A model generated the notes under the pieces. The model had not been told where the DNA came from, did no database searches, and was given only the letters and a program-made list of their open reading frames with translations. This document shows positions 882 through 33,520 of a stretch of 64,000 nucleotides of DNA, in pieces. The first letter of the stretch is position 1, and every line of letters begins with the position of its first letter. A program made the position numbers and the translations under genes. Source of the DNA: Lucinisca nassula (taxonomy: Eukaryota; Mollusca; Bivalvia; Lucinida; Lucinidae); assembly GCA_963580285.1 (NCBI GenBank), contig OY757025.1:116067900-116131899 (forward strand), written 5' to 3'.

Positions 882-1922
882 TCAAGTTAGCCCAAAAGTG
901 CTCATTTTCATGCCCTTGAAGTACTCCCCGTGGCTAGAAATGCAAAGTTTCAGCAGACTTCTTGAAGGTGTCACGGTACGCTGATTTGGGCACAGTAATA
1001 TGGTACCAATGAAAGGCAGATCCAAGTGCCTGTCGGGACTGGTATTTCCACCCACCAAGGAATGATTGTAATTTCGGAAATAAAAAGAAATCACATGGGG
1101 CAAGGTCTGGGGAATCAGCGGTGAGACAAAACAGTTACTTCGTAACTATTGCGGGGGTATGAGCGGTTGCATTGTCATGTCGAAGACGGACATGTTTAAA
1201 ACCAGTGTTGGGGCGTCGTTTCTGATAATACTTTTTCAGTTTCTTCAGTACTACGTCTTTGTGGTACTTTCCGGTGATGCTTTTGCCCTTTTTCACCGGC
1301 ACTTTTATTGCGACTCCTTCACCAGAGAAGAAGATTGTATACAGAACCTTCTTTGTACTCAAATAACGTTTGGCAAATTGTTGGGCGTTTGCTGTGTTTA
1401 GTGGCCCAGATCTTATTGCTAATCTTTCTGACGGGCTCAAAATAATTGACCTAGGTTTCATCACCTGTGACGACATTGGTAAACTGCATTTTATCATATT
1501 TTGGAAACATTTGAAGCAGCTTTTTGGCCACTTTAACCCGTTGCCTCTTTTGCCCGTCAGTCAACAGATGTGGCAACCATCTAGCAGAACTCTTTCTGAC
1601 TTTCGAATGCTTCTTCAAAATAAGGTGAATCGTTGATAGTGATATGCCTGCCTTTCGTGCAATATCACGAACTGTAAATCTGGCATCTCCTTCAATGGTT
1701 TCCTTTATTTTGGAAACGATTTCTTTACGAAATGCAGATTTTGGCCTACCTGATTTCGGTGCACTTTTGATGGACTCTACACCAGACTCAGATTTCTGTT
1801 TCCTCCGCCGAACCGTATCATAAGACACACAAGAAGGTCCAAAAGCAATAGAAATTTCAATCATCAGCTTCTTCGAAGAACAACCAAGTTTTGAGCAAGC
1901 TTTCATGCAAGCCCGTTTTTTT
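882..1922 (-). pseudogene. Mariner transposase, frameshifted and truncated
   Basis: A DNA-cutting and joining transposase relic of the mariner family. Read on the - strand, the N-terminal part has a helix-turn-helix-like stretch (SGRPKSAF, then DIARKAGISLSTIHLILKKH). WLPHLLTDGQKRQRV follows, then the first catalytic Asp in VTGDET (about 1451-1470). In other frames come the second Asp in RHDNATAHT (about 1165-1190), the third in SPDLAPCDFFLF (about 1080-1110, Asp codon at 1090-1092), and a C-terminal SHGEYFKGMK. The family spacing is D,D34D. Here a stop codon and deletions shorten the second interval to about 28 residues. Several frameshifts, plus the SINE directly upstream, mean no functional protein can be made. 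Confidence 0.93.
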
Positions 1923-2217
1923 AGCCCCCGCCCATAGGGGCTTGAAGAAATATATGGGCTGCATGATGCTTCCACGCAGAGCTGAATCCGGCCCGCACAC
2001 TAGTACTGGTAAACCGCTTAGAGGATCTAAGCCTGTCCAGGAACCACGGTGCGAGGCGGACCTTCCATGCTAATAAACCCTATTGGTTTCATTGGGCGAC
2101 AGGGCTTGAGATGTCATTTCATCTCAATGTCGGGTAAAAGTCCCACAAAATTGGAAGCAACGTCTCCAAAATGACCTTTACAGTGTTGACGGGGACGTTA
2201 AACCTCAAATCAATCAA
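1923..2217 (+). mobile_element. SINE-A, near full length, inside mariner
   Basis: Starts AGCCCCCGCCCATAGGGGC and ends ACGTTAAACCTCAAATCAATC. The flanks share TTTTTAG (5' about 1916-1922, 3' just after the tail), a plausible target duplication. It interrupts the mariner, so it is younger than that element. Confidence 0.9.
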
Positions 2218-2514: not shown

Positions 2515-3598
2515 TCCTAACTCATCAGTGCAACATCTCCAAGAACATAACAAGAGGGCCCAGATTCGCTCACCTGAATGCCACTGTCTCTAGTACATTC
2601 TATTTTAGCTCTGGCAGCCATCTTGTTCATTAGAGCGGAACGAGCTTAGCTATTTTGGTAGGGTGTCACCTAGGCAACATTCCTGTGAAATTTGAACCAA
2701 TTTGACCCAAGGGATTAGTACGAGTTCGCATTTGAAGAAACTTTACGATGTTTTTTTTTCCATTTTAACTCTGGTGGCCATATTGTTCATTGGAGCGGGA
2801 TCATTTTAGTTATTTTGGTAGAGGGTCATCTAAGCAACATTCTCGTGAAGTTTGAATGAAATTGGCCCAAGGGTACAGGAGGACTTGTCGCTTGAAGGTT
2901 TTTATCTATTTTAGCTCTGGCGGCCATCTTGTTCATCAGAGCGAAATGATTTTAGCTATTTTGGTAGGCAGTCACTTGTGCAACATTCCTGTGAAGTTTG
3001 AATCAAATTGGCCCAAGTGTTTAGGAGAAGTTCGCGTTTGATTTTTTCTTCTTTTTTTTTAGCTCTGGTGGTTATTCTGTTCATCGGAGCGGGATAGGTT
3101 TAGCTAATTTAGTATTTTAGTCATCTAAGCAACATTCCCATGAAGTTTGGATGAAATTGGCCCAAGGGTACAGGAAGACTTGTCGTTTGAAGATGTTTTC
3201 TATTTTTAGCTCTGGTGGCCATCTTGTTCGTCAGAGTGGAGCAATTTTAGCTATTTTGGTAGGGAGTCACCTACGTAATATTCCTATGAAGTTTGAATCA
3301 AATTGGCCCAAGTGTTAAGGAGGATTTCGCGTTTGAAGCAAATTTACGATGTTTTTTTTTTCTATTTTTAGCTATGGCAGCCATTTTGCTCATCAGAACA
3401 ACACATTTTAGCTCTTTTGGTAGAGGGTCGCCTAAGCAACATTCCTATGAAGTTTGAATGAAATTGGCCCAAGGGTACAGGAGGAGTTGTCGTTTACAGA
3501 TTTTTTTCTATTTTAAGCTCTGGAAGCCATCTTTTTTGTCAGAGCGGAACGAATTTAGCTATTTTGGTAGGGAGTAACCTGGGCAACATTCCTTTGAA

Positions 3599-3916
3599 TA
3601 TGTTCTATAAAAGAGTTATCCTTTGGAAGCAAGGAATACACCACAGAACTGAAAAAAATATGGAGTGTACATGTTTTCTGGGCCAGACTAGCTAGTTTCG
3701 GCCATTTAGGCCTCATCAGTGACCCTCAGATATCTTCAAATTCCATAGTGGAATCAATGATCCCAAAGGACAAGAAAATATAATCTACACTATGATGTAG
3801 GGCAGGGAGACGTTTTACCGCCACCACACATTCCCACACACCAGCTGTAGTGAAGTTAAATATGTTCTATAAAAGAGTTATCCTTTGGAAGCAAGGAATA
3901 CACCACAGAACTGAAC
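3599..3916 (-). mobile_element. Retrozyme-like insertion (hammerhead repeat), copy 1
   Basis: A 318-bp insertion in an E1 unit, flanked by identical 9-bp copies of TCCTTTGAA (3590-3598 and 3917-3925). It holds one complete 262-bp monomer (3599-3860) and the first 55 bp of a second (3861-3915), which match perfectly. On the - strand each full monomer carries a type-I hammerhead ribozyme. Tandem multimers of a few hundred bases, a ribozyme in each monomer, and target duplication on insertion match animal retrozymes, which are non-autonomous RNA-mediated elements. A Penelope-like terminal repeat is the alternative. A diverged relative is at 25233-25519. Confidence 0.85.
3680..3725 (-). ncRNA. 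Hammerhead ribozyme, type I (HHR1)
   Basis: Read on the - strand: stem I 5' arm GGGTCA (3720-3725), core CTGATGA (3713-3719), stem II GGCC (3709-3712), loop TAAAT, GGCC (3700-3703), core GAAA (3696-3699), stem III CTA-GC-TAG (3688-3695), cleavage triplet ending TC (3686-3687), stem I 3' arm TGGCCC (3680-3685). All invariant core positions are present. Stem I gives six pairs including one G-U. Stem III is very short, as in other small animal type-I hammerheads. Self-cleavage is predicted, not shown. Confidence 0.9.
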
Positions 3917-4636
3917 TCCTTTGAAGTATGAATTAATTTGGACCAAGGCTTTAGGAGGAGTTCGGGTTTGAAGCAAATTTACGATGTTTTTCTATTTTTA
4001 GCTCTGGTGGCCATATTTTTCATCGGGGCAGAAAGATTTTAGCTATTTTGGTAGAGACACGCCTAAGCATTATTCCTATGAAGTTTTAATGAAATTGGCC
4101 CAGGGGTTTGGGAAGAGTAGTCGTTTAAAGATTTTTCTTTTTTTAGCTCTGGTGGCCATCTTGCTCATCCGAGCAGAACAACTTTAGCTGGTTTAGTAGA
4201 GGGCTACAAAGGCAGCTTTCCTATGAAGTTTGAATGAAATCGGCCAATGGGTATGGGAGGAGTAGTCGTTTAGACATTTTTCTACTTTTAGCTCCGGTGG
4301 CCATCTTGTTCATCGGAGCAAAACCATTTTGGCTATTTTGATAGCGAGTCACCTAGGCAACATTCCTGTGGAGTTTCAATGAAATTGGCCATAGGGTTTA
4401 GGAGGAGTAGTCTTTTAAAAGAATTGTAGACGACGCACACCGTACGACGGACATTGACCGATCATGAGCACTTCGTGCTCAGGTGAGCTAACAAGAGCAC
4501 CGCATGCGGATGCCAACGCTCGGCTGCAGTTTCTTTTAGTTAAACAAAAATTCTAAGTCGAAAAAGGGGCATAACTGTGCCAAAAATATTTTGAGGGTTA
4601 CATCACCTATTGGTATGAGTTCCCCTTTTCATAATG

Positions 4637-15372: not shown

Positions 15373-16639
<1,267 letters not shown>

Positions 16640-17275: not shown

Positions 17276-17401
17276 CAAAACTGCTAGGTAATATTTGTTT
17301 AAAATATTGTTTAAGCTGGACTGGCTGTTGTAAAACGTTCTTTGAGTTTCAGACAACTGGGCCTTTTACAGAAGTCATATTTCTGGCTTTCTTATTTCCA
17401 G

Positions 17402-17506
17402 GCTGTTGACCACTGGGTAAGCGTCCATTCTCTACAGACTTCCAGTGAGGGGAGTATACTAGACCCTGACGATACACTCTCAGATGTTGTAGATGACAGA
17501 GAACAA
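17402..17506 (+). CDS. PARD3: PAR-3 polarity scaffold, coding exon 2
   Basis: Acceptor CTTATTTCCAG (ending 17401) and donor CAA before GTGAGT (17507). The 105 bp encode 35 residues in phase 0 on both sides, running from AVDHWVSVHSLQ through EGSILDPDDTLSDVVDDREQ. This matches the second half of the PAR-3 N-terminal domain, where an aromatic WV or WI followed by HxL and an acidic LDxDDxLxDVxDD stretch is conserved. The acidic cluster is one face of the front-to-back self-association surface known for this domain. Intron 1 is 1162 bp and intron 2 is 7073 bp. Confidence 0.95.
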
Positions 17507-17553
17507 GTGAGTTATTATTACTAATTTGTATCAGACATCAGCCAGCCGTGGTT

Positions 17554-21524: not shown

Positions 21525-22756
21525 ACCAGGGGCCGCAGATCAATCCCGGGTTTCTCCAGACTATCGGAGGAGTCTTTAAACTGAGGCTCTGACTCCATAT
21601 GACCTTTAGTGTTGGTGAGACGTACATGTAAAACTCAAATACTCACTCTGAAAGCAAAGGGTAAGAGAAAGATCTTTTTATTCCAAGTTCAGAGATCTGC
21701 CCTTTCAGCAAGGTTGTGCATATTTAATGCATATTTAATGTGCCCATTTTACATATTTTCACGCACACCAGCCTCTGTAGCTCAGATGGTTGAGCATCTG
21801 ACTGGTGATCAGGGGGACGTGGGTTGGATGTGGCTTGAAACCCTTTGGCTTTTACATGTACCATGGATGAGTGGAAGCCTTTCTTTGGTCCGCAGGGAAT
21901 TCCTCCATTTACCATATAAGGATAATTTAGGGCGATTTTTTCTTTTATCTGGCAAATTTATGCTGTGTGTACTCATTAGAATCGCCTCAATGGGGCGATT
22001 CTAATGAGTACACACAGCATCATATAGAACAACAAAAAGATATCCCACAATTATCTTCATTACGTCTCCTGGTATGGCACCAATGGTAACCCTCCAGTAG
22101 TCAAACTACTACTGAAAGAAATTTTCATGGTCCCAAATCCTTTACCAGGGGCCGCAGATCAATCCCGGGTTTCTCCAGACTATCGGAGGAGTCTTTAAAC
22201 TGAGGCTCTGACTCCATATGACCTTTAGTGTTGGTGAGACGTACATGTAAAACTCAAATACTCACTCTGAAAGCAAAGGGTAAGAGAAAGATCTTTTTAT
22301 TCCAAGTTCAGAGATCTGCCCTTTCAGCAAGGTTGTGCATATTTAATGCATATTTAATGTGCCCATTTTACATATTTTCACGCACACCAGCCTCTGTAGC
22401 TCAGATGGTTGAGCGTCTGACTGGTGATCAGGGGGACGTGGGTTGGATGTGGCTTGAAACCCTTTGGCTTTTACATGTACCATGGATGAGTGGAAGCCTT
22501 TCTTTGGTCCGCAGGGAATTCCTCCATTTACCATATAAGGATAATTTAGGGCGATTTTTTCTTTTATCTGGCAAATTTATGCTGTGTGTACTCATTAGAA
22601 TCGCCTCAATGGGGCGATTCTAATGAGTACACACAGCATCATATAGAACAACAAAAAGATATCCCACAATTATCTTCATTACGTCTCCTGGTATGGCACC
22701 AATGGTAACCCTCCAGTAGTCAAACTACTACTGAAAGAAATTTTCATGGTCCCAAA
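21525..22756 (+). repeat. 619-bp near-perfect tandem duplication
   Basis: 21525-22137 and 22144-22756 are almost identical; one difference noticed is GAGCATCTGACT versus GAGCGTCTGACT. Each copy carries a SINE-B-type tRNA-like head (CTCTGTAGCTCAGATGGTTG) and an M6 palindrome (about 21960-22018 and 22579-22637). It is followed by a 34-C run. Recent duplication or an assembly artefact. Confidence 0.92.
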
Positions 22757-24579: not shown

Positions 24580-24769
24580 CTGATAGCGGACTATGAAGAG
24601 CAAGGTGGTGGGGGATCTTTCGGAAATGGAGATGGGGCCAGCACGTGTTCTACCGGCACAGCGAGCCCGGATATTTTCCACAATGAGGCTATCAACAGCA
24701 AACACCTCCGAGGCTACTCCCTGGATGGTGGAAATGATGTCGTCGTTACTCCTAGAGACATAGCCACGG
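24580..24769 (+). CDS. PARD3: PAR-3 polarity scaffold, coding exon 3
   Basis: Acceptor CATATTTTTGTAG (ending 24579) and donor ACGG before GTAAGT (24770). The 190 bp start in phase 0 and leave one base over. The 63 residues open LIADYEEQ, then a Gly-rich stretch, STCSTGTASPDIF, KHLRGYSLDG and VVVTPRDIAT. The L(I/V)A.(Y/F)(D/E)EQ start and the (S/A)STGT.SP(D/E)IF motif follow directly after the N-terminal domain in PAR-3 proteins, so this is the correct next exon. It codes for the disordered linker before the first PDZ domain. The acceptor lies within a few bases of duplicated repeat sequence. Confidence 0.95.
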
Positions 24770-24844
24770 GTAAGTGCTGAAGAGGTTCAGTAAACTTCAA
24801 ACAATAAACACAGTCAGTGTAGACAACATTTTCCAAGTACCGGT

Positions 24845-25057
24845 AACATATTTTCCGTATGTATTCAGACAGACAGACTTTAGCCAACAGTGTAGACCCA
24901 AATGAGATGCTGCAGAATCCAGCATCTCATCAGGGTCTACACTGTTTGCCACTCATCCTGCCACCTCCAGACACAACATCGGGTCGTAAACCCGACTTGT
25001 TCAAATTTTAAAACAAGTATGGTAAAGAGTTGAGGTGTCTGAATATTTAGGGTAAAT
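24845..25057. mobile_element. MITE family M8
   Basis: Shares CGTATGTATTCAGACAGAC, the palindrome GAGATGCTGCAGAATCCAGC with its AACAGTGTAGACCC arm, CACTCATCCTGCCACC and GACACAACATCGGGT with 38285-38505. Confidence 0.7.
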
Positions 25058-25232: not shown

Positions 25233-25519
25233 CAGATTTAGAACATTTGACTTCACGACAACTGGTGTTTAATGTGTGGTGGCAGTAAAAAGTCTCCTTG
25301 TCCTTCATCATACTGTGGGCCTTTGGGATCATTGATTCAACTGCGAAAATTTGAAAACACAAATACATTGTGTATTTGAGGGTCACTGATGAGGCCTAAT
25401 TGGCCGAAACTACATATAGCTAGTCTGGCCCAGAAAAACTTGTACACACTATGTTTTACAGTTCTATGTTCAGTATTTTTTAAGCATTGCTTCCAAAGGA
25501 TTACCATTTTATAGAATGT
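25233..25519 (+). mobile_element. Retrozyme-like hammerhead repeat, copy 2, in PARD3 intron 3
   Basis: In the same orientation as PARD3. It aligns end to end with the monomer at 3599-3860 (read on -): AGAACATTTGACTTCACGAC, GTGTGGTGGCAGTAAAAAGT, TTTGGGATCATTGATTCAAC, the ribozyme, then GCTTCCAAAGGATTACC and TTTTATAGAATGT. Only one monomer is seen, with many substitutions, so it is an older or separate insertion. The minisatellite starts 14 bp downstream. Flanking duplications are not clear. Confidence 0.8.
25380..25431 (+). ncRNA. Hammerhead ribozyme, type I (HHR2), sense in PARD3 intron 3
   Basis: Stem I 5' arm GGGTCA (25380-25385), core CTGATGA (25386-25392), stem II GGCC (25393-25396), loop TAATT, GGCC (25402-25405), core GAAA (25406-25409), stem III CTA (25410-25412), 8-nt loop, TAG (25421-25423), TC with predicted cleavage after 25425, stem I 3' arm TGGCCC (25426-25431). 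Every core base is kept although the surrounding repeat and both loops differ from HHR1, which suggests past selection for activity. It would be transcribed with PARD3 pre-mRNA. Confidence 0.9.
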
Positions 25520-25532
25520 TTATTTATCTGGT

Positions 25533-26934
25533 TGTCAGAAGCCTCACAGGCTGGTAACAACTGGCTGTTAGATGCCACACAGGCTGGTAACAACTGGCTG
25601 TTAGATGCCTCACAGGCTGGTAACAACTGGTTGTCAGAAGCCTCACAGGCTGGTAACAACTGGCTGTTAGATGCCACACAGGCTGGTAACAACTGGCTGT
25701 TAGATGCCTCACAGGCTGGTGACAACTGGTTGTCAGAAGCCTCACAGGCTGGTAACAACTGGCTGTTAGATGCCACACAGGCTGGTAACAACTGGCTGTT
25801 AGATGCCTCACAGGCTGGTAACAACTGGCTGTCAGAAGCCTCACAGGCTGGTAACAACTGGCTGTTAGATGCAACACAGGCTGGTAACAACTGGTTGTCA
25901 GAAGCCTCACAGGCTGGTGACAACTGGTTGTCAGAAGCCTCACAGGCTGGTAACAACTGGCTGTTAGATGCCACACAGGCTGGTGACAACTGGTTGTCAG
26001 AAGCCTCACAGGCTGGTAACAACTGGCTGTTAGATGCCACACAGGCTGGTGACAACTGGTTGTCTGTAGCCTCACAGGCTGGTAACAACTGGCTGTTAGA
26101 TGCCTCACAGGCTGGTAACAACTGGTTGTCAGAAGCCTCACAGGCTGGTAACAACTGGCTGTTAGATGCAACACAGGCTGGTGACAACTGGTTGTCTGTA
26201 GCCTCACAGGCTGGTAACAACTGGCTGTTAGATGCCTCACAGGCTGGTGACAACTGGTTGTCAGAAGCCTCACAGGCTGGTAACAACTGGCTGTTAGATG
26301 CAACACAGGCTGGTAACAACTGGCTGTTAGATGCCACACAGGCTGGTAACAACTGGCTGTTAGATGCAACACAGGCTGGTAACAACTGGCTGTTAGATGC
26401 CTCACAGGCTGGTGACAACTGGTTGTCAGAAGCCTCACAGGCTGGTAACAACTGGCTGTTAGATGCAACACAGGCTGGTAACAACTGGCTGTTAGATGCC
26501 ACACAGGCTGGTAACAACTGGCTGTTAGATGCAACACAGGCTGGTAACAACTGGTTGTCAGAAGCCTCACAGGCTGGTGACAACTGGTTGTCAGAAGCCT
26601 CACAGGCTGGTAACAACTGGCTGTTAGATGCCACACAGGCTGGTAACAACTGGTTGTCAGAAGCCTCACAGGCTGGTAACAACTGGCTGTTAGATGCCAC
26701 ACAGGCTGGTGACAACTGGTTGTCTGTAGCCTCACAGGCTGGTAACAACTGGCTGTTAGATGCCTCACAGGCTGGTGACAACTGGTTGTCTGTAGCCTCA
26801 CAGGCTGGTAACAACTGGCTGTCAGATGCCACACAGGCTGGTGACAATTTGCTGTCAGATGCCACACAGGCTGGTAACAACCGGTTGTCTGTAGCCTCAC
26901 AGGCTGGTAACAACCGGTTGTCAGCAACCATCAC
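25533..26934 (+). repeat. 33-bp minisatellite, about 42 units
   Basis: Units read CTGGCTGTTAGATGCCACAC then AGGCTGGTAACAA, with CTGTCAGAAGCCTCAC and CTGTCTGTAGCCTCAC variants in mixed order. Since 33 is divisible by 3, frames stay open for more than 460 codons on both strands (11-residue repeat on +, QAGNNWLLDAT). There is no start context, no splice signal and no known protein, and it lies in PARD3 intron 3, so I call it a non-coding array. Confidence 0.95.
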
Positions 26935-27075
26935 CATTAATAATATCAGAGTTCCTATTAACTAACTCCAAATTTGGAGTCATTTACTCCAACTTCTCAT
27001 TTCTGACTCCAACTTGTTTGGAAACCTGTTTGGTTTGCTTGAAATATGTCCAAACCCTGACCTAGTGCTGTGAAG

Positions 27076-32510: not shown

Positions 32511-33520
32511 TAGCTCACCGTCACGTAGTGACGAGGTGAGCTTTTGGGATCACTTTTTGTCTGTCGTCCGTCGTGCGCGGGTCAGTCCGTGTGTGCGTCC
32601 GCAATTTCTTCAAATGACATCTCCTCCTAAACCACTGAGCGGATTTTGACCAAACCTCACAGGAATGTCCTAAGGTGGTCCCCTTTCAAAGTTGTTCAAA
32701 TGGTTCGGGTCCGTTGCACATCTACATGTAGGTCACAGGAGCCAAAAATATATTTTTTTTCACTGAAAACTTAAAAATCTTCTTCTCTGAAACCCCAAGG
32801 CCCAGGTCTTTGATATTTGGTATGGAGCTTCATCAAGTGAACCTCTACCAAGATTGTTCAAATTATAGCCCTGAGACTAAAATTGCCCCCACCTCTGGGC
32901 GCTGTGGTGTACATTGACTTATATGGGGAAATTCTCTAAAAATCTTCTTGTGTGAAACCACAAGGCCTAGGTCTTTGATATTTGGTGTGAAATTTCATCT
33001 AGTGGACCTCTATCAAAACTGTTCAAATTACAGCCCTGGGGCCAAAAATGCCCCCCGCCCCGAGACCCTTTGGTTGTACATAGACTTATACAGGGAAATC
33101 TTTGAAAATCTTCTTCTCTGAAACTGCAAGGCCCAGGTCTTTGATATTTGGTGAAGCTTCATCTAGTGGACCTCTATCAAGATTGTTTAAATTATAGCCC
33201 TGAGGCCAAAAATGCCCTGGCCCCGGGGCCATTTGGTTTTACATAGGCTTATGTAGGGAATATCTTTAAAAAAAAATCTTCTTCTCTGAAACCGAAAGGC
33301 CCAGGTCGTTGATATTTGGTGTGTAGCTTCATCTAGTGGACCTTTGCCAAGAGTGTTCAAATTATAGCTGTTGTTGATATTTGGTATGAAGCTTCACCTT
33401 TTTAGACCTCCCTCAACATTGTGCACATTATAGCCCTGGGGTCAATAATGGCCCTCCCCGGGGCCCACTTGTTACTCTATGGATCAGGTGAGCGATTCAG
33501 GGCCATCATGGCCCTCTTGT
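32511..33520 (-). mobile_element. Helitron-like tandem-repeat element E7
   Basis: On the - strand it starts ACAAGAGGGCCATGATGGCC and ends with the hairpin CGTCACTACGTGACG plus GTGAGCTA, the same kind of ends as E1. Inside are about five ~180-bp units (GGCCCAGGTCTTTGATATTT) and a GTCYGTC-rich segment near the 3' end. Confidence 0.78.

Follow-up and report, generated by a model that had tools for sequence, protein, structure and literature searches.

A hammerhead ribozyme sequence that appears intact lies within what looks like an intron of PARD3 in the bivalve Lucinisca nassula, which raises the question of whether the ribozyme serves its host gene or belongs to a mobile element that was inserted there. 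The motif was examined within a window of 64 kb (the whole stretch of DNA that was analysed), and copies of it were sought in other parts of the genome assembly.

The hammerhead and its surroundings

The motif occupies positions 25380-25431 of the plus strand (copy 1) and was recognized by sequence reading, by a strict descriptor and by R2, a covariance model built from other copies. It consists of GGGTCA (25380-25385), CTGATGA (25386-25392) and GGCC (25393-25396), followed by the stem II loop TAATT, a second GGCC (25402-25405), GAAA (25406-25409), the stem III strands ACTA and TAGT enclosing an 8-nt loop, and finally C at 25425 and TGGCCC at 25426-25431. The layout is that of type I, in which a CUGANGA...GAAA...UH core is combined with three helices and the molecule is open at stem I; the core and all three helices are present, and cleavage is predicted at 25425/25426. 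At the level of sequence, this is a real and correctly located hammerhead, and a previous sequence-only reading of this DNA had given its letters, coordinates, sense orientation, core and helices exactly. The strict descriptor (stem I of 6 bp, stem II of 4 bp, stem III of 3 bp and full core) matched twice in the window, at 25380-25431 (+) and 3680-3725 (-), and twice in total in 5871 dinucleotide shuffles of the window (751 Mb, both strands). The folding energy of the 52-mer is ordinary (z -1.14; 24 of 200 shuffles were equally stable). No clear tertiary contact between loop I and loop II was seen by eye; in excerpts of PMC7229834, hammerheads of Mytilus are reported without most of the nucleotides that form this contact.

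The genomic context was assessed by tblastn with an approximate N-terminal sequence of human PARD3. Collinear matches on the plus strand were found at 16120-16239 (E 5e-12) and 17393-17509 (E 0.001), followed in the same order and on the same strand by a weak third match at 24640-24687 (E 1.3). The open frame of the exon with this third match runs into GTAAGT at 24770, and the hammerhead starts 610 bp past this donor on the same strand, which bears out the earlier statement that it lies 610 bp downstream of an exon on the coding strand. Searches of Pfam and PDB with the putative third exon gave no matches. Judged from the tblastn matches and the donor, the surroundings of copy 1 resemble a PARD3 intron that follows the third match.

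Several other features were observed in this part of the window. The same intron contains a near-perfect inverted repeat, identified by eye, at 24888-24945 (ACAGTGTAGACCC...GGGTCTACACTGT), which resembles a miniature inverted-repeat element. A minisatellite with 33-bp units (TRF periods 66 and 99) starts 12 bp past copy 1 and extends over 25528-26924, within a 493-codon open frame at 25484-26965 (+) that encodes an 11-residue repeat like ASQAGNNWLLD; this frame may merely follow from the period, because two minus-strand frames are open too. In addition, two 133-codon open frames at 21603-22004 and 22222-22623 (+), 619 bp apart and differing by one residue in translation, are probably the product of a recent local duplication.

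A dispersed repeat in the window and the genome

The second hammerhead of the window, at 3680-3725 on the minus strand (copy 2), was found by its core, by the strict descriptor and by R2, and has a palindromic stem III. It lies 21.7 kb from copy 1, in the opposite orientation and upstream of the first PARD3 match. Homology between the two copies extends well beyond the hammerhead: the segment 25239-25516 (+), which comprises about one unit and whose ends are approximate, is 72.6% identical to copy 2 when gaps are counted (E 6e-45), and at ungapped positions 45/46 bases of the hammerhead and 170/198 bases of the flanks are identical. By homology, copy 1 is one insertion of a dispersed repeat and not a device specific to PARD3. 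Thus, of what had been proposed for this locus, the type I hammerhead in sense orientation in an apparent PARD3 intron stands, whereas its presentation as a means for PARD3 pre-mRNA to cut itself overlooks the repeat to which it belongs.

Copy 2 is a clean insertion into a satellite. It spans 318 bp (3599-3916, -), or 1.2 units of 262 bp, and carries a 60-bp terminal direct repeat, the two copies of which are 98.3% identical and 262 bp apart (5' copy at 3856-3915 and 3' copy at 3594-3653, both on the minus strand; the alignment of the latter enters the target-site duplication by a few bases). The 318 bp are bounded by a 9-bp target-site duplication, TTCAAAGGA, at 3917-3925 on the 5' side and 3590-3598 on the 3' side (-). 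When the flanks are joined with one duplication kept, they give a gap-free 130-base alignment to the surrounding 146-bp satellite units, with empty-site matches at 3350-3221 (83.8%) and 2749-2620 (81.5%). The longest stop-free stretch of copy 2 over six frames is 60 codons, as expected of a non-coding element; its GC content is 0.41, a second value being 0.37. Elsewhere in the window, at 1135-1999 (-), transposase remains that are presumably mariner-like were noted in two overlapping frames (Transposase_1 PF01359, E 3e-5; HTH_32, E 2e-6, below its curated Pfam cut-off).

Public covariance models responded weakly to these sequences. At gathering thresholds, Rfam listed nothing anywhere in the window. 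At relaxed thresholds, the best Rfam match to copy 1 was RF03152 (RAGATH-1 hammerhead; 24.8 bits, cut-off 56.3), RF00008 reached 20.1 bits (cut-off 48.5), and the best match to copy 2 was HH9 (RF02275; 19.5 bits, cut-off 52). With E allowed up to 10, the matches listed for the two copies do not include RF00163; one of these listings omits an unnamed, lower-scoring overlapping hit from the same clan. At E up to 1, Rfam lists no hammerhead in five of the stretches sampled elsewhere in the genome (L002, L004, L009, L013 and L015). Because Rfam scored both copies below its cut-offs and was silent on sampled loci, two further models were built: R1 from both window copies, one hammerhead of L015 (L015b) and the two of L002, and R2 from three hammerheads outside the window. 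R2 gave 58.3 bits for copy 1 at 25380-25431 (E 7.5e-15) and 63.9 bits for copy 2 at 3680-3725 (E 1.5e-16), the E-values of models this small being rough, and these were its only matches in the 64 kb up to E 10. Moreover, the new models detect hammerheads in L002, L009 and L015, where Rfam lists none. The covariance search that had been suggested as a check therefore has two outcomes, a score below threshold with the public models and a match at E 7.5e-15 with R2; since R2 finds copy 1 from outside copies, the sub-threshold Rfam score is not taken as a refutation. A scan of viral contigs gave 0 matches to the hammerhead core. A search of whole genomes with RF00163 gave no match, but it scored 73 of 434402 candidates and produced no signal in any of 14 control genomes, so that it has no weight in either direction.

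The genome assembly (2.93 Gb, 696 contigs) was sampled in 20 stretches of 10 kb, of which L001 adjoins the window and L002-L020 were placed at hand-set positions, on 16 large contigs. At E <= 0.01, R1 identified hammerheads in 4/19 of the set stretches, namely L002 (two places), L003, L009 and L015 (two places, L015a and L015b); L002 and L015b had contributed to the model, and L003, L009 and L015a had not. In L001, R1 found no match at E 0.01 or better. A decayed hammerhead was seen in L010 (R1 E 0.27), and element pieces were also found by blast in L004, L010 and L013, which brings the family to 7/19 set stretches. Of the sampled hammerheads, L015b alone passed the strict scan; those of L009, L015a, L003 and L010 are truncated or decayed, and stem I is broken in L002. 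A looser scan (5/3/3 bp, intact core) of L001-L018 and the window recovered only L015b and the two window copies. Extrapolated to 2.93 Gb, the four ribozyme-bearing insertions seen in 190 kb would correspond to roughly 60,000 (with a Poisson range of about 17,000-160,000), a figure that comes from a small sample at hand-set positions.

The sampled copies differ in their arrangement. Two hammerheads lie about one unit (262 bp) apart in L015, and two lie 383 bp apart in L002, which represents a subfamily (B) distinct from that of copy 2 and L015 (A). Single hammerheads are present in copy 1, L003 and L009, the last two being 5'-truncated insertions that start beside or within the hammerhead. No arrays beyond two hammerheads were found in the window and the sampled 10-kb stretches. 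A sibling repeat at L013:4537-4756 and L004:4385-4508 shares the tail of the element, and in L013 its central part too, and has a different block of ~100 nt at the hammerhead position, which includes AACAGACTCAATGAAACCGAGTCTGC in L013. The possibility that this block is another ribozyme was considered and rejected; for E up to 1, Rfam lists no family in it. Sequence similar to a 165-bp tandem repeat of the window (32753-33368) was noticed on both sides of the L013 sibling repeat, which seemingly interrupts it.

Variation among the hammerheads was also compared with their predicted pairing. Stem II occurs as GGCC/GGCC, as GGCT/AGCC and in one form with GAC/GTC and a single mismatch, so that two stem II pairs are changed on both sides among five sequences; none were in slid controls. 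The covariation score was reached by 9/500 shuffles and the percentage paired by 27/500. This helix covariation is suggestive only, because the alignment comprises five sequences, 64/500 shuffles contained two doubly changed pairs and 457/500 matched the number of pair types. In this alignment, all four sequences other than copy 1 have a palindromic stem III, ACTAGCTAGT or ACTACGTAGT, and the palindrome measures 10 nt in most copies; copy 1 has six additional stem III bases, which are absent from the other six aligned copies. Two-strand folds were predicted to form double hammerheads in both window copies (-43.3 kcal/mol for copy 2 and -35.6 for copy 1).

Insertion ends and a retrozyme reading

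The borders between insertions and flanks were drawn by eye except in copy 2. In subfamily A, the 3' ends (AGAACATATT) lie 89 (copy 2), 87 (L015) and 89 (L009) nt past the predicted cut, that of copy 2 being ambiguous by a T or two because TT opens the target-site duplication; in subfamily B, they lie 65 (L002) and 66 (L003) nt past it. The corresponding TAGAAT of copy 1 ends 92 nt past the predicted cut. On the other hand, the 5' ends differ among copy 2, L003, L009 and L015. A target-site duplication was recognized only in copy 2, and inspection by eye of copy 1, L002, L003, L009 and L015 revealed none. Set 3' ends together with variable 5' ends are established for non-LTR elements as the outcome of target-primed reverse transcription from a set start. 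The pattern suggests that reverse transcription starts at a fixed point on an RNA joined across the cut site, and such a start point is compatible with Penelope-like machinery. Because the copies run through the cut site, the template would be a circle or uncut RNA rather than a cut linear monomer.

Very probably, the motif is the ribozyme that belongs to a genomic copy of a short, non-coding, non-autonomous element of the animal non-LTR retrozyme kind, the unit of which measures 262 bp in subfamily A and 383 bp in subfamily B. The observations behind this reading are a dispersed hammerhead repeat, partial or dimeric tandems, one 9-bp target-site duplication with an empty site, and 3' ends that are set while the 5' ends differ. 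Transcripts longer than one unit would be cut by the hammerhead, and the monomers would be ligated into circles; a reverse transcriptase acting in trans, most likely Penelope-like, would then start 65-89 nt 3' of the cut, and copying would pass over the cut site in its joined state, with more than one circuit in some cases. A fuller version of this scheme, in which the start lies at that distance, the 5' ends mark where copying stopped, the template has a joined cut, the tail is read by a Penelope-like enzyme in trans, and the tail is essential and the ribozyme exchangeable, is offered as a tentative and rather doubtful proposal. The ribozyme might be an exchangeable module because L013 and L004 keep the tail with another block at the hammerhead position.

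The family was compared with published systems. According to the excerpts used here of Cervera and de la Pena 2020 (PMC7229834), which deals with retrozymes of coral, mussel and axolotl, animal non-LTR retrozymes have type I hammerheads, tandem units of 150-450 bp with GC <50%, target-site duplications that exceed 4 bp where present, and no LTR, PBS or PPT. The family described here resembles them, at least as they appear in those excerpts, in its type I hammerhead, low-GC non-coding unit (262/383 bp, where the published range is 150-450 bp), tandems that are dimeric or partial, one target-site duplication >4 bp and apparently many copies, the likeness being one of described features and not of unit sequence. 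It differs in the 10-nt palindromic stem III of most copies and in that no long arrays were seen; the excerpts of PMC7229834 contain no mention of set 3' and differing 5' ends of the kind observed here. A weak palindromic stem III is shared with the satellite hammerheads of newt and axolotl, for which dimer cleavage has been reported (PMC7229834 and PMC7761336, both as excerpted); the double hammerhead of copy 2 is a prediction, and unit length and host differ. Amniote intronic hammerheads (HH9, RF02275) are likewise intronic, and copy 2 scores best in Rfam with HH9, whereas those are described as conserved motifs in the excerpted part of PMC7761336 and the present one is a copy of a dispersed repeat. 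Retrozymes and Penelope-like elements had been named beforehand as known carriers of hammerheads.

Alternatives and the meaning of the PARD3 copy

Three other explanations were weighed, and all of them, namely a Penelope-like fragment, a dedicated PARD3 ribozyme and a chance match, were ranked lower than the retrozyme. The motif might be a piece of the pseudo-LTR of an autonomous Penelope-like element, with no separate retrozyme involved. RF03152, the best Rfam match to copy 1, is a family associated with Penelope-like elements, and a short stem III would suit this explanation, although the scores lie far under the RF03152 cut-off. For the Penelope-like element of the anole, PMC11167929 places the hammerhead cut 26 bp past the start codon and the onset of reverse transcription 111-118 bp inside the ORF, which gives a distance of 85-92 nt from cut to start. 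The corresponding 87-89 nt of subfamily A agree with it suggestively, and the agreement may be due to chance, since subfamily B has 65-66 nt. Thus, the family shares a short stem III and a set start tens of nucleotides 3' of the cut with minimal Penelope-like hammerheads (RF03152; PMC11167929), but, unlike the anole element, it has no reverse transcriptase in the unit. The unit closes within 262 bp (copy 2 and L015) or 383 bp (L002) with no coding sequence between the repeats, and neither the 318 bp of copy 2 nor the spacings of ~262 and 383 bp in L015 and L002 leave enough room for a reverse transcriptase and a GIY-YIG endonuclease, which makes this explanation improbable. It has also been reported that hammerhead mutants of the anole element had no effect on insertion in vitro and that reads with an end at the cut were absent (PMC11167929); in view of these results, an essential part of the ribozyme in insertion should be assumed only with caution.

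It is still less probable that PARD3 has retained or recruited the hammerhead as a means of cleaving its pre-mRNA in the intron, affecting splicing or making an RNA end. The sense orientation of the hammerhead and its position 610 bp downstream of a splice donor would suit such a role, as would its extra stem III bases: with little flank, the predicted probability that all hammerhead pairs form is ~0.3 in copy 1 and ~0.04 in copy 2. In longer contexts, however, copy 1 yields values between 0.3 and 1e-4, some contexts being almost fully misfolded, and with 80 nt upstream it drops to 1e-4 to 3e-3. The better preservation of the hammerhead than of its flanks relative to copy 2 could be counted in favour of co-option, but constraint on the element before insertion explains it equally well, and copy 1 is one copy of a dispersed repeat. 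Copy 1 may cut the PARD3 intron; a role in PARD3, or selection for one, finds no support in the present sequence analysis, and this copy most likely entered the gene as a bystander. Finally, the idea that the motif resembles the hammerhead consensus by chance, for which scores under the Rfam cut-offs and an ordinary folding energy might speak, is hardly credible given two strict matches in 64 kb against two in 5871 shuffles and a repeat family in which the motif recurs with paired changes.

Retrozymes are mobile elements of an established kind, and the site of this one is unremarkable; what the finding chiefly offers is the ends of the copies. In the excerpts of PMC7229834, the enzyme that mobilises animal retrozymes is left open, and Penelope-like elements are named there as a strong candidate on circumstantial grounds. 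If the set 3' ends hold, they would provide a sequence test for the mobilising enzyme, whose start site in this genome should be that point. Moreover, the PARD3 case implies that an intact-looking intronic ribozyme can be a transposon passenger, and such motifs should be interpreted with caution.
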